Positions 28,534 to 62,051 of a stretch of DNA of 64,000 nucleotides are shown in pieces. The notes below the pieces were generated by a model, which saw nothing but the letters and a program-made list of their open reading frames with translations, ran no database searches and had not been told where the DNA came from. The stretch's first letter is position 1. Every line of letters begins with the position of its first letter. Origin of the DNA: Falsirhodobacter sp. alg1 (GTDB taxonomy: Bacteria > Pseudomonadota > Alphaproteobacteria > Rhodobacterales > Rhodobacteraceae); the NCBI RefSeq assembly GCF_000739715.2, contig NZ_BBJC02000003.1:149338-213337 (forward strand). The letters run 5' to 3'. The position numbers and the translations under genes were made by a program.

Positions 28534-28559
28534 GGAACCCTCGCAACAGCCACCGCGTT
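28534..28559 (+). promoter_or_regulatory. EcfG-type general-stress promoter (GGAAC-N17-CGTT) before FNT gene
   Basis: GGAAC at 28534-28538 and CGTT at 28556-28559 are separated by exactly 17 nt, a perfect match to the consensus of alphaproteobacterial EcfG-type sigma factors. The downstream element ends 30 nt before the GTG start of the FNT gene. The promoter begins one base after the cobV stop, so it would give the FNT gene its own transcription start. Sigma-factor identity is inferred from consensus only. Confidence 0.65.
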
Positions 28560-28589: not shown

Positions 28590-29447
28590 GTGGCACCTGA
28601 AGTCGTCAAGGAAACCGAGGTCGTCAAGGAAGCGCCCAAATCCGAAGTGGAAGCCCTGGAGGAAAACCTGCCATCCGCGGCAGCGGCGGTTCACCAACTG
28701 ATCCGCGAAGACGGCGAAAAAGAAATGCGGCGCAAGTTCCGCGCCCTTTTGTGGTCTGCCATTGCAGGTGGCATCACCATGAGTACGTCGATGCTGGCAC
28801 GGGCCATTCTGGCGGCGCATCTGCCAGATACAGACCCTGCGTTTCTGATCGAATCTGCAGGGTATACCGTCGGCTTCATCCTCGTGATCGCGACAGGCCA
28901 GCAGCTGTTTACCGAAAACACCGTCACCCCCGTACTGCCGCTGATGACGTCCCCGACATGGCGCAATCTGGGCAAGGTTGGCCGCCTCTGGGGGGTGGTG
29001 CTGGCGGGCAATATCATCGGCGGTGCGATTGCGGCGGCGGTTTTCGCCTTTTTGCCGATGTTCTCGGCAAATGTGGACGCGGCGATGATAGAGATCGGCG
29101 AGGGCCTGATGGAGAATACGGCTTTCGAGATGTTCTCCAAGGGGATCGTTGCCGGCTGGTTGATCGCGACGCTGGTCTGGACGCTTCGCAGTTTCGAATC
29201 CTGGGCATTCGTGATGATATTTCTGGTGACCTATCTGGTGGCGCTTGGGGATTTCACACATATCATCGTGGGAACGATCGAGGTTCTGTACCTCATCTTC
29301 CTTGGGCAGCTTGAAATTGCGCCGGCGATCTTCCGGTTCGGTATTCCCACCTTGCTGGGCAATGTCGTGGGCGGCGCCTTCATATTCGCGCTGATCAGCC
29401 ATGCCCAGGTACAGGCAGACGTCGATCATTCACGGCCTGCACAATAA
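28590..29447 (+). CDS. Formate/nitrite transporter (FNT) family membrane protein, YfdC-like
   Basis: This 285-residue protein has a charged N-terminal tail with the near-repeat EVVKETEVVKEA, then an FNT-type domain of about six helices (residues about 50-270). FNT channels conduct small monovalent anions such as formate or nitrite; YfdC-like members are uncharacterised. GGAG at 28580-28583 is six bases from GTG 28590, which I take as the start; a TTG at 28578 would overlap this site. It lies between the cobalamin operon and eutBC but probably has its own stress promoter, so a direct role in B12 or ethanolamine use is not implied. Confidence 0.85.
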   Translation: MAPEVVKETEVVKEAPKSEVEALEENLPSAAAAVHQLIREDGEKEMRRKFRALLWSAIAGGITMSTSMLARAILAAHLPDTDPAFLIESAGYTVGFILVIATGQQLFTENTVTPVLPLMTSPTWRNLGKVGRLWGVVLAGNIIGGAIAAAVFAFLPMFSANVDAAMIEIGEGLMENTAFEMFSKGIVAGWLIATLVWTLRSFESWAFVMIFLVTYLVALGDFTHIIVGTIEVLYLIFLGQLEIAPAIFRFGIPTLLGNVVGGAFIFALISHAQVQADVDHSRPAQ

Positions 29448-43733: not shown

Positions 43734-44303
43734 TCACAGGCTGCGCGACATGGCGCGATGACGGCCTTCGCTGATTTCCTCGACAACTTTGGCACAGAAT
43801 GCATCAAGGTCGTTCGGATTGCGGCTGGTTACAAGGCCGGAATCGACAACGACTTCACGATCCTGCCATGTGCCGCCCGCATTTCGGATGTCGGTCTGGA
43901 GTGAGGGGAAGGAGGCAACGGTTCGCCCCTTCAGCACATCGGCCTCTACCAGAACCCATGGACCGTGGCAGATCGCGGCAACAGGTTTTTGCTGTTCCAC
44001 GATCGTGCGTACGAAGCTGACAACATCCTTGTATGCCCGCAGCCTGTCGGCGCCGACGGTACCGCCCGGGATGACCAGCGCATCGAACTGGTCGGCATGC
44101 ACATCCGCAACCTTGGCATCGACCTTATGGGTGCCGGCCGGCTGCAGATCGCCCGAAACGGTCTTGGCATCGTCTGTTGTCAGGCTGATCACGGTGACGC
44201 GGGCACCGGCTGCTTCCAATGCAGCCTTGGGACGCGCGAATTCGACATCTTCGGTTCCCTCTGGCGCGATCAGCAAGGCCACGGTTTTTCCATCGAGTTT
44301 CAT
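43734..44303 (-). CDS. PfpI/DJ-1 family protein (YhbO/protein deglycase-like)
   Basis: The 189-residue protein has the DJ-1/PfpI fold with the nucleophile elbow Cys112-His113 in AAICHGPW and an upstream Glu in APEGTED. Relatives are stress-linked deglycases, glyoxalases or proteases. I start at MKLDGKTVALL; an in-frame extension into the divergent kinase gene lacks similarity. A perfect GGAAC-N17-CGTT promoter lies 29 nt before the ATG, which supports stress induction. A membrane microprotein follows in the same unit. Confidence 0.92.
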   Translation of the reverse strand: MKLDGKTVALLIAPEGTEDVEFARPKAALEAAGARVTVISLTTDDAKTVSGDLQPAGTHKVDAKVADVHADQFDALVIPGGTVGADRLRAYKDVVSFVRTIVEQQKPVAAICHGPWVLVEADVLKGRTVASFPSLQTDIRNAGGTWQDREVVVDSGLVTSRNPNDLDAFCAKVVEEISEGRHRAMSRSL

Positions 44304-44332
44304 CAAAGCACCTTTTCCACTTGTGATGGTCG

Positions 44333-44358
44333 AACGAAAAAGGGAAATAAAATGTTCC
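44333..44358 (-). promoter_or_regulatory. EcfG-type general-stress promoter (GGAAC-N17-CGTT) of pfpI
   Basis: On the minus strand GGAAC (44358-44354) and CGTT (44336-44333) are separated by 17 nt, mostly A/T, a perfect consensus. The distance from the downstream element to the pfpI ATG is 29 nt. The promoter lies in the 77-nt gap shared with the divergent kinase gene. Confidence 0.75.
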
Positions 44359-44380
44359 GGTTTCTTGTTGGAGTTCGACC

Positions 44381-45970
44381 TTGCCCGACGCGCAAGCCCG
44401 TTACGATATGCTGGACCGGCTGAATATTCTCGATACTCCGGATGAGCCGGAGTTCGACAATCTGGTTGGTATAGCACGCGCGGTTTGCCGCGCTCCCATT
44501 GCGCTGATCAGCCTTGTTGATCGTGACCGCCAATGGTTCAAGGCGCATGTCGGGTTCGAACGTCATGAAACGCCGCTGGATGAATCCGTCTGCACCCATG
44601 TTCTGGGTGAACCTGAAATCCTGGTCATTCCGGATCTTACACAGGACCCGCGCACCCGCGAAAACCCGCTGGTTCTGCGGGATCCGAATATCCGGTTCTA
44701 TGCCGGGGTGCCTCTGCGCGTCGAAGGGGTCACGATCGGCTCGCTTTGCGTCATCGACCTTGTCGCCCGGCCTCAGGGGTTAAGCACGGAGGAAATCCGG
44801 ATACTGAAGGCAATCGCGCTGGAGGTGGTGAACCATATCCAGCAGCGCGACCGCCGTAACCTTTGGCGTGCCGAGGTGGAGCGTCGGAACGCCAATCTGC
44901 GTGTGGCGGCCGAACATGCCGAGGCGCTGGTCCGTCTGGGCGATGTATTGCGCAAGACCGAGAATGTGCCCGAGGTCGTATCGCTGGGATCCACGACGAT
45001 GGCCGAAACGCTGCGTGCCACGCGCGCGGGGTTCGGGATTGTGGATGCCGTCAATGAAACCGTGATGATGCAGCCGGATTGGCGGATGCCCGGCGTTCAG
45101 TCATTGGCGGGGTTGCACCACTTTCGCGACTACGGCTCTTTTGTGGATGACCTGAACCGCGGAGAGCTGGTGATCGTTCTGGATGTCGAAAAGGATCCCC
45201 GCACAGCCAAAAGCGGCAAGATGCTGGCAGAAATGGGCATCCGGGTACTGATCAACGTGCCGATCTTCCAGAATGGTGTGTTTTCGCTGGTCGGCTTTGT
45301 CCATTTTGACTGGGAACGTCCGCTGGCGGATGTGGACATCAGCTTTGTCCGCGCTGTGGCCGACCGTATTCAGGCCGCAATCGTAAGCCTGCGCGCAATA
45401 GAAGAGCGGCGTACGGCCGGGCGGGAGATGAGCCATCGGCTCAAGAATACCTTTGCCATGATCACGGCCATTGCCCGTCAGACCTTCAATGGCGCGGATC
45501 GTGAGGCTGTGCGCGGTTTTTCGAACCGTCTGATTGCCATGGGGGCCGCCTATGATCTGCTGGCCCATGAACGGTGGGAGGCGGCCAAGCTGGAAGCCGT
45601 GGTTGCAGGGTCCGTCGCGGTGGTGGCGGGGGCGGATAACATCCATCTTTCCGGCCCGGCGGTGGATCTGGGTTCCGAAAGTGCATTGTCCGTCGCCTTG
45701 CTGGTCCACGAACTGGTCACGAATTCCATGAAGTACGGAGCACTTTCGGTTTCGGAGGGGCGGGTGTCGCTGGATTGGTCCGTCGCCGAGGATGAGTTGG
45801 TGATGGCTTGGCAGGAAAGCGGCGGGCCCGAGGTGGTAAACCCTACCCGAAGGGGCTTCGGATCCCGGCTGATGCAGGCGGGCCTGGGGAATGGCAACGC
45901 CATGCTGGATTACCGCCCCGAAGGTTTGCAGGCGGCATTCCGCGCGCGGCTCAGCGATCTCAGGCGCTGA
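44381..45970 (+). CDS. HWE-family sensor histidine kinase with GAF-like input domains
   Basis: This soluble 529-residue kinase begins with a GAF domain (about 1-150), followed by a second sensor region (about 165-335) that also looks GAF-like. The HWE kinase core follows: phospho-acceptor His352 in EMSHRLKNTF and an N-box-like ALLVHELVTNSMKYG. No transmembrane segment is seen. The best start is TTG 44381 with GGAG seven bases upstream; the first in-frame ATG is at 44408. HWE kinases often act on the PhyR branch of the alphaproteobacterial general stress response. This gene lies between two EcfG-type promoters, but no PhyR, NepR or sigma factor is in the window. Confidence 0.88.
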   Translation: MPDAQARYDMLDRLNILDTPDEPEFDNLVGIARAVCRAPIALISLVDRDRQWFKAHVGFERHETPLDESVCTHVLGEPEILVIPDLTQDPRTRENPLVLRDPNIRFYAGVPLRVEGVTIGSLCVIDLVARPQGLSTEEIRILKAIALEVVNHIQQRDRRNLWRAEVERRNANLRVAAEHAEALVRLGDVLRKTENVPEVVSLGSTTMAETLRATRAGFGIVDAVNETVMMQPDWRMPGVQSLAGLHHFRDYGSFVDDLNRGELVIVLDVEKDPRTAKSGKMLAEMGIRVLINVPIFQNGVFSLVGFVHFDWERPLADVDISFVRAVADRIQAAIVSLRAIEERRTAGREMSHRLKNTFAMITAIARQTFNGADREAVRGFSNRLIAMGAAYDLLAHERWEAAKLEAVVAGSVAVVAGADNIHLSGPAVDLGSESALSVALLVHELVTNSMKYGALSVSEGRVSLDWSVAEDELVMAWQESGGPEVVNPTRRGFGSRLMQAGLGNGNAMLDYRPEGLQAAFRARLSDLRR

Positions 45971-45972
45971 CA

Positions 45973-45997
45973 GGAACCACATCTGCAGTGTGCCGTT
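45973..45997 (+). promoter_or_regulatory. EcfG-type general-stress promoter (GGAAC-N16-CGTT) of PRC-barrel gene
   Basis: GGAAC at 45973-45977 and CGTT at 45994-45997 are separated by 16 nt, a perfect consensus match. It begins two bases after the kinase stop and ends 32 nt before the ATG of the exported PRC-barrel gene. A separate transcript for the PRC-barrel genes is therefore likely. Confidence 0.75.
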
Positions 45998-46029
45998 GTT
46001 TCCGTAGAATGAATACGGAGAATGACGCT

Positions 46030-46437
46030 ATGAAACTTCTTGCAACCTCGGCAATGATCCTGACGCTTGGCACAGCGGGGGCAATGGCCCAGGAGGTCGT
46101 CGTTCCGATGGACGGCGTACGCGCCAGCACCATCGAGGGCGGCGAGGTCTATAGCATCCAGACCGGCATCGAAGAGGCGACCTTCGGCACAACCAAATAC
46201 ACAGATATCAGCACCGAATGGGACAACATCGGTGAAATCGAAGACATCGTTCTGTCACCCGAAGGTGAAATGATCGGCATCGTCGCTGAAGTTGGCGGCT
46301 TTCTTGGAATGGGGGAGCATGAGGTGATGCTTCCGTCGGATGCAGTCCATCTGCTGTCGGGGAATGACGGGAAATATGCCTATGTAACGCGCCTGTCGCT
46401 TGATGAACTGAAGGCACTGCCTGTCATCAAGGAATGA
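46030..46437 (+). CDS. Exported PRC-barrel domain protein
   Basis: The 135-residue protein has a Sec signal (MKLLATSAMILTLGTAGAMA, cleavage after AMA near residue 20) and a PRC-barrel-like domain (about 55-130) with IGEIEDIVLSPEGEMIG and GGFLGMGEHEV. PRC-barrel proteins of this kind are common stress-induced periplasmic proteins of unknown biochemical function. GGAG lies nine bases before ATG 46030; an ATG 21 nt upstream would place extra polar residues ahead of the signal. A perfect EcfG-type promoter lies upstream. Confidence 0.85.
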   Translation: MKLLATSAMILTLGTAGAMAQEVVVPMDGVRASTIEGGEVYSIQTGIEEATFGTTKYTDISTEWDNIGEIEDIVLSPEGEMIGIVAEVGGFLGMGEHEVMLPSDAVHLLSGNDGKYAYVTRLSLDELKALPVIKE

Positions 46438-46501: not shown

Positions 46502-46843
46502 ATGGCCAGTACCACAATTTCCAGCAAAGACGTTGATGGCACCGCAGTCTACAGCCCCTCGGGCGACCGGCTTGGCCATATCGATCATCTGAGGATCGAT
46601 AAGGAGCTGGGCTATGTCGCCTATGCGGTTATGGGGTTCGGCGGTTTTCTGGGGGTTGGCGAAGGCCATCACCCCGTACCGTGGAAGAAACTGCGCTATG
46701 ACACATCGCTGAATGGCTATGTCACGGACATTACCGAAGAACAGTTGCAGAAAGCACCGCGCCAGCCCGAAGAAACCGATGATAACCGCCAATGGGCAAC
46801 TACGTTTTACGGTTATTACGGCGTTGCACCCTATTGGGTGTGA
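46502..46843 (+). CDS. PRC-barrel domain protein (cytoplasmic)
   Basis: This 113-residue protein has one PRC-barrel domain: VYSPSGDRLGHIDHLRID (about 16-33), YVAYAVMGFGGFLGVGEGHHPVPW-type core (positions about 38-61) and a C-terminal tail ending in YYGVAPYWV. No signal peptide is visible. It lies 64 nt after the exported PRC-barrel gene, preceded by GAGGA, and may share its transcript. Its stop abuts the stop of the convergent DUF1178 gene with no base between. Confidence 0.85.
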   Translation: MASTTISSKDVDGTAVYSPSGDRLGHIDHLRIDKELGYVAYAVMGFGGFLGVGEGHHPVPWKKLRYDTSLNGYVTDITEEQLQKAPRQPEETDDNRQWATTFYGYYGVAPYWV

Positions 46844-61928: not shown

Positions 61929-62051
61929 GACGTCCTCTTTGCTTAGGGATGTGTCGTTCATGGAACATTCATGCAGGACACGCAAGACCGGAACCTACGG
62001 CGCATGCAGCCGGTTCAAATAGCTTGTGCAAACAATAGCAGAGCATGTGAA

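Follow-up and report, generated by a model that had tools for sequence, protein, structure and literature searches.

Are the promoter motifs that flank an orphan sensor kinase gene real outlets of the bacterial general stress response (GSR), and does the kinase itself belong to that response? The question is raised by a 64,000-nucleotide stretch of DNA from Falsirhodobacter sp. alg1 (hereafter the window; C3:149338-213337 of a 2.92 Mb draft genome in 154 contigs), in which an HWE histidine kinase lies between two GGAAC-N16/17-CGTT motifs, one before pfpI and one before the gene of an exported PRC-barrel protein. A third such motif precedes a formate/nitrite transporter family (FNT) gene. In the GSR of alphaproteobacteria, kinases phosphorylate PhyR, phosphorylated PhyR removes NepR from the sigma factor EcfG, and RNA polymerase carrying EcfG reads GGAAC-N16/17-CGTT. 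On the evidence given below, the window sites are very probably genuine EcfG promoters of a PhyR-NepR-EcfG cascade rather than chance matches. The kinase is perhaps one of the inputs of that cascade.

The core genes of the cascade were identified on contig C1, where phyR is divergent from a unit of nepR, an EcfG-type sigma factor gene and a HisKA_2 kinase gene. The predicted PhyR has sigma-like and receiver domains (PF22029, 86.7 bits; PF22233, 53.1; PF00072, 47.3) and scores 357.4 bits against the model NF006623 (cut-off 240). NepR matches PF18557 with 58.5 and 59.3 bits in two scans (cut-off 25.7); its gene lies directly 5′ of the sigma gene, and the called nepR and ecfG frames share 4 nt. 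The sigma factor shows Sigma70 r2 and r4 domains and reaches 328 bits with NF009198 (cut-off 270), a model titled just 'RNA polymerase sigma factor', so that the name EcfG is given because the gene adjoins nepR and phyR. The kinase beside ecfG is termed only PhyK-like because its 230.5 bits with the PhyK model NF051872 stay under the curated cut-off of 750. An exact EcfG site is located between phyR and nepR (G000:C1:398877-398901, G000 being the window genome; L032:8878-8902), and this predicted site is consistent with autoregulation of the cascade. The genome search for PhyR, NepR and an EcfG sigma factor, set beforehand as the refuting test of the original prediction, found all three encoded together, and judged from these gene models the bacterium encodes a GSR. 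The cascade had also been described as patchy in Rhodobacterales, which agrees with the presence of NepR in 65 of 149 genomes of the family (GTDB family f1, which we take to be Rhodobacteraceae) and in 30 of 190 sampled genomes of the class.

A pattern search of the window returned all three sites at the positions first assigned to them, and the spacings of 29 nt to pfpI and 32 nt to the exported PRC gene hold when measured from the end of the -10 element. Their number is a different matter. Three matches had been considered well above expectation; the count is in fact unremarkable, as dinucleotide shuffles of the window contain a mean of 0.85 matches and reach three or more in 8 of 100 cases. 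Genome-wide, the exact motif occurs 47 times (20 + 27) and its reversed control 111 times (63 + 48), an excess that weighs against any argument from counts. The number of motifs is no argument for function, and because shuffles reach three and the reversed motif outnumbers the motif, the count is not used here as evidence.

Placement, in contrast to number, sets the sites apart from background. We called a site well placed if it was intergenic and at most 250 nt 5′ of a co-oriented start, classing the 47 exact sites within their 3 kb surroundings by a purpose-written gene caller trained on the same DNA; because the caller is home-made and trained in this way, errors are possible in individual starts and among the seven distant targets. 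All three exact window sites are well placed before genes, and genome-wide 34 of the 47 are intergenic and 30 well placed, at 18-53 nt from the called start in 23 cases and 89-165 nt in seven. Permuted motifs served as the control for placement, since the reversed pattern has different dinucleotides. Within 364 kb (C2:1-300000 plus the window), 3.9% of the matches of 150 permuted motifs are well placed; the real motif has 8 of 12 matches well placed in the same DNA, whereas a permuted motif has 0.25 on average and never more than 2. When spacers of 12-22 were compared over these 364 kb, well-placed sites appeared with 16 and 17 only. The binomial probability of 30 well-placed sites among 47 is ~1e-30, and the sites are enriched upstream of starts.

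The sites also stay with their genes among the seven genomes of the genus (G000-G006), in all of which the best pfpI match stands behind an EcfG-type site. It is the first gene after the site (29-31 nt) in G000, G002, G003 and G006, and the second, after an exported PRC gene whose start lies 28-29 nt from the site, in G001, G004 and G005. The -10 element is CGTT in five genomes and TGTT in two (G001 and G004). In G002 and G005, pfpI has been relocated from the kinase locus, and an EcfG-type site is present at the new position. Of the exported PRC genes with 41% identity or more, among them that of the window, 6 of 6 are preceded by a site at 28-32 nt from the start, a count that assumes a downstream Met as the start in G006 and excludes the distant match of G003. 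The FNT gene was found in three of the seven genomes (window, G002 and G005) and has an exact EcfG site before it in each. For a second PRC gene, cytoplasmic by appearance, G002, G005 and, by eye, G006 each have a separate site; the window copy has no exact site of its own, and that of G003 has GGAACC without a -10 element. The second PRC gene of the window is perhaps transcribed by read-through from the promoter at 45973. One genome counts against this picture: G003 has no close exported PRC gene, its best match (33%) having a TGTT site alone, 190 nt upstream. Overall, predicted sites accompany the pfpI, exported PRC and FNT genes in relatives, even where pfpI or PRC has moved. Two further features of these loci were seen. 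In G004, G001 and G005 (L207, L208 and L209), the exported PRC gene and pfpI are adjacent and co-oriented behind one site, and not on either side of the kinase as in the window. The alignment of the FNT gene of G002 (L314) contains one in-frame TGA, which may mean a broken gene or an alignment that overruns the end of the gene.

If the sites were chance matches, the ordinary window count and the surplus of reversed motifs would be expected. The placement enrichment, the 16/17 spacing specificity and the sites found with relocated genes refute chance as a general account, and we consider it hardly credible for the window. Genuine promoters, from which EcfG is predicted to transcribe, fit these observations.

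Proteins behind the 30 well-placed sites extend the candidate regulon beyond the window; 20 were scanned with Pfam (two without a match) and 10 are unscanned. Stress-type targets include CsbD-like, AhpC/TSA-family and pyridoxamine-oxidase-like proteins. A single-domain response regulator and a PAS-HisKA_2 kinase, presumably LOV-like to judge by its motif, stand behind exact EcfG sites at 121 and 35 nt (L018 and L185), which suggests feedback into the two-component part of the response. The gene of a sigma-70-family factor, which we take to be RpoH-like, begins 114 nt after another exact site (L176) and points to a possible sigma cascade.

Downstream of pfpI, a frame of 22 codons reads MNRPVLLIGAAAVIVLIIVFIR. 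Comparable hydrophobic frames of 20-22 aa occur in G002, G003, G005 and G006, and every one of them follows an EcfG site, either by itself or with pfpI in between. The ATG of the frame overlaps the pfpI stop in G003 and G006, and in G002 and G005 the frame stays behind the kinase-side EcfG site though pfpI has moved away. In the stretches searched, those beside pfpI and the kinase, no such frame was found next to pfpI of G001, G004, G002 or G005. The 22 aa product is a putative membrane micropeptide, short enough to escape ordinary annotation.

Table 1 Promoter sites and genes of the window discussed in the text (window coordinates).
Feature	Position	Strand	Remarks
EcfG-type promoter GGAAC-N17-CGTT	44333..44358	-	exact match; last base of -10 to pfpI start, 29 nt
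EcfG-type promoter GGAAC-N16-CGTT	45973..45997	+	exact match; 32 nt 5′ of exported PRC gene start
EcfG-type promoter (exact, N17)	28534..28559	+	30 nt 5′ of the called GTG start of the FNT gene
Weaker candidate EcfG site GGAAC-N17-GGTT	61990..62015	+	36 nt 5′ of SDR-like gene; GGTT -10
pfpI (DJ-1/PfpI family)	43734..44303	-	TIGR01382, 165.8 bits (cut-off 139.05)
Orphan GAF-GAF-HWE histidine kinase, 529 aa, TTG start	44381..45970	+	
PRC-barrel protein (PF05239)	46030..46437	+	signal-peptide-like start, judged by eye
Second PRC-barrel protein	46502..46843	+	by Pfam scan; no signal peptide seen
Formate/nitrite transporter family (FNT) gene	28590..29447	+	PF01226
Putative hydrophobic (single-span) micropeptide frame, 22 aa	43658..43726	-	3′ of pfpI

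The SDR-like gene behind the weaker site of Table 1 is a possible additional EcfG target in the window; the accessible part of a Rubellimicrobium thermophilum study gives the form used for promoter prediction there as GGAAC-N16-17-C/GGTT (PMC12148442).

The protein between the two divergently oriented sites is indeed an HWE kinase (PF07536, 68.6 bits; cut-off 22.8), as had been proposed. Residues H443, W477 and E479, presumably the N box His and the G1 box W-x-E of the HWE signature, are invariant in 6 of 6 genus sequences. Relatives at 54-59% identity are encoded in five of the six other genus genomes; the surroundings of the gene are the same in G002, G003 and G005, and a site facing outward from the kinase is found in all four genomes including that of the window. 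The nearest solved kinase domains by sequence are those of the LOV histidine kinases 5epv (E 3e-32) and 6ph4 (E 1e-31), and the NCBIfam model of blue-light-activated histidine kinases, NF052306, gives 109.8 bits, under its cut-off of 450. A search beyond the genus for kinases of this full length was unproductive: among the best 80 loci listed, L093 of Falsirhodobacter sp. 20TX0035 (Rhodobacterales) matches with 57% over residues 1-527, the next-ranked is at 46% (Rhizobium), and in many the similarity is confined to the first GAF domain.

By analogy with an HWE/HisKA2 kinase of Rubellimicrobium (Rhodobacterales), which phosphorylates PhyR in vitro according to the accessible part of the report (PMC12148442), we lean slightly towards the GAF-GAF-HWE kinase being one input to PhyR. 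Several observations tell against this assignment. The kinase lies elsewhere in G001 and G004, where the nearest site is a TGTT variant ~1.3 kb off, and G006 has no close ortholog, its best match being 37% over residues 173-527. At the kinase locus no EcfG site is present on the kinase's own strand, and since none faces it, the kinase must use some other promoter. The match to 5epv, a blue-light-activated histidine kinase, spans the kinase domain only, and three further stretches of the genome match this domain; because these and the PhyK-like kinase of the core locus exist, the actual input to PhyR may be another kinase. It is quite possible, if at somewhat below even chances, that the sites are real EcfG promoters and the kinase is unrelated to the GSR, standing there by chance and signaling to some other response regulator. 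The lack of a close ortholog at the locus in three of the six other genus genomes (G001, G004 and G006), where pfpI and PRC keep their sites, favors such independence, as do the direct junction of pfpI with the cytoplasmic PRC gene in G006, with no kinase between, and the absence of a site toward the kinase. Against it, no response regulator was recognised among the immediate neighbors of the kinase, by domain scan or by eye. It was also considered that the pfpI-side site could be a two-way promoter that drives the kinase as well, as the opposite-strand reading of GGAACA...CGTT ends in ...TGTT and an A follows GGAAC in all four syntenic loci. The -35 element on the kinase strand, however, is CGAAC, TCAAC, ACAAC or CCAAC in the four genomes (by eye) and thus not kept, and the window genome has no overlapping opposite site at this position; we therefore rejected the two-way promoter, which is quite improbable.

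Two-way promoters do seem to be present at the core locus. The exact site in the phyR-nepR interval belongs to the palindrome GGAACCAAACACATTGCATGGCGTTTGGTTCC (L032:8878-8909; G000:C1:398877-398908), in which an EcfG promoter can be read on either strand with a 7 bp offset, exact toward nepR and with TGTT toward phyR. It alone among the 47 genome sites has an overlapping opposite site. Across the family the palindrome measures 31-33 bp, with GGAACCAAACG-N10-CGTTTGGTTCC as its clearest form. Two overlapping opposite GGAA[CT]-N16/17-NGTT sites are found at 46 of 59 divergent phyR/nepR family loci (in one of these, L092, the element is not within the interval that separates the estimated gene starts), both opposite promoters are exact at 26, and the outer -35 pair GGAAC-N20-23-GTTCC is present at 56. 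In shuffled 1.2 kb stretches the overlapping-site form occurs in 0 of 3150 and the outer-pair form in 19 of 2950. Outside the family, none of 8 divergent loci has the outer pair; when all 28 loci are considered regardless of gene layout, two have it (L300 and L303, both of family f42), and these adjoin phyR and ecfG matches. Of the 149 family genomes, 31 contain the strict form GGAACNNAACN12-13GTTNNGTTCC, always as a single copy, and the reversed control matches in none. By-eye comparison places all 31 carriers among the 65 NepR-positive genomes, with the element within ~200 bp of nepR, and finds it in 0 of the 84 others. In the class-wide sample, 3 of 289 genomes carry it, two of the family and G358. 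Because L300, L303 and G358 carry forms of the element outside the family, the architecture is enriched rather than exclusive. The G358 copy (other family; L315:1587-1618) precedes a receiver-domain frame, and no match to the sigma part of PhyR, to NepR or to EcfG was found in the 3.2 kb of sequence around it.

These counts are raw across genomes and uncorrected for relatedness. Family loci examined, among which the element is common, are L032, L063-L071, L073-L083, L092 and L243-L282. The 59 loci represent 54 of the 65 NepR-positive genomes and six genus-mates, seven of the genus being included; L072, L259 and L261 were dropped because a divergent phyR/nepR pair was not recognised in them, and G174, G176, G180, G181, G183, G186, G187, G188, G190, G191 and G193 were left out, together with the second nepR copies of some genomes. 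Five of these 11 NepR-positive genomes are without the strict palindrome. The outside-family set comprises 28 loci, eight with both genes recognised as divergent, and omits L287 (G101, counted as L256).

When the 35 elements that measure 32 bp are compared, conservation is seen in the columns of the two EcfG promoters, at position 6 and, less so, at positions 7 and 12, while the center is free. Since the columns match the promoters and the center is free, two overlapping promoters are favored over a site for some dimeric protein, which is the less favored reading of the palindrome. The overlapping promoters would have a direct consequence: one EcfG polymerase fires one way at a time, so phyR and nepR-ecfG would be transcribed in mutually exclusive shots. 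We give roughly even chances to the full proposal, in which one palindrome of 31-33 bp, made of two opposite-strand EcfG promoters, starts the GSR core of the family, the ratio of activator to inhibitor is thereby built into the DNA, and the window genes, including the micropeptide, are outputs. Among the matches listed from the open-access literature, outside which most subscription journals lie, no description of palindromic overlapping EcfG promoters at phyR/nepR was found.

The window locus itself is best explained as a cluster of GSR targets with an orphan sensor kinase in its midst. Leftward of the kinase, EcfG would switch on pfpI and the 22 aa micropeptide; rightward, it would switch on the PRC-barrel gene or genes, and elsewhere in the window the FNT gene. 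These results show that exact EcfG motifs noticed in one window can be built up into a supported regulon when their placement is assessed across the genome and the motif is traced alongside relocated genes. They also provide a candidate list of GSR targets for a genome of the Falsirhodobacter type, from a group in which the response has a patchy distribution. If the overlapping core promoter functions as its sequence suggests, it becomes testable whether promoter geometry sets the activator:inhibitor ratio in a partner-switch circuit.

The system shares with the alphaproteobacterial PhyR-NepR-sigma EcfG response its three proteins, the motif, the site at the core locus and the stress-type targets; it differs in that the promoters of phyR and nepR-ecfG overlap in a palindrome and that the targets include FNT, pfpI and the micropeptide frame. 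The kinase resembles 5epv and 6ph4 in its kinase domain, but its sensor is GAF-GAF and theirs LOV. PhyR systems have already been described in two Rhodobacterales, as RSP_1274 in Rhodobacter sphaeroides (PMC5830050) and in Rubellimicrobium thermophilum (PMC12148442). The gene order of RSP_1271-1274 is shared with the core locus here, with phyR opposite the genes of a NepR-like protein, an EcfG-like factor and a histidine kinase. The NepR-like protein of R. sphaeroides, however, is 25% identical to NepR, whereas the present NepR reaches 58.5 bits, and the RSP_1273-1272 promoter lies opposite the phyR coding region instead of in the intergenic interval as here; because of that reported position, the overlapping arrangement need not hold in R. 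sphaeroides, whose PhyR has a role in membrane stress and a response reported as specialised (PMC5830050). With RT-HK/RT-PhyR of R. thermophilum, the system has in common the order Rhodobacterales, an HWE/HisKA2 kinase and predicted GGAAC-N16-17 promoters; RT-HK has a LOV domain and measured phosphotransfer (PMC12148442), while the window kinase carries a pair of GAF domains and is a candidate PhyR kinase. Rhizobium etli likewise has a phyR gene divergent from an ecfG1 unit, both EcfG1-dependent in reporter fusions, and the promoter overlap found here is not mentioned in the accessible part of that report (PMC3892343); in Sphingopyxis, nepR2-ecfG1 carries an EcfG site (PMC7083833). In conclusion, the locus belongs to a known kind of system, and the overlapping core promoter and the micropeptide are its less ordinary parts, which deserve the attention of specialists.

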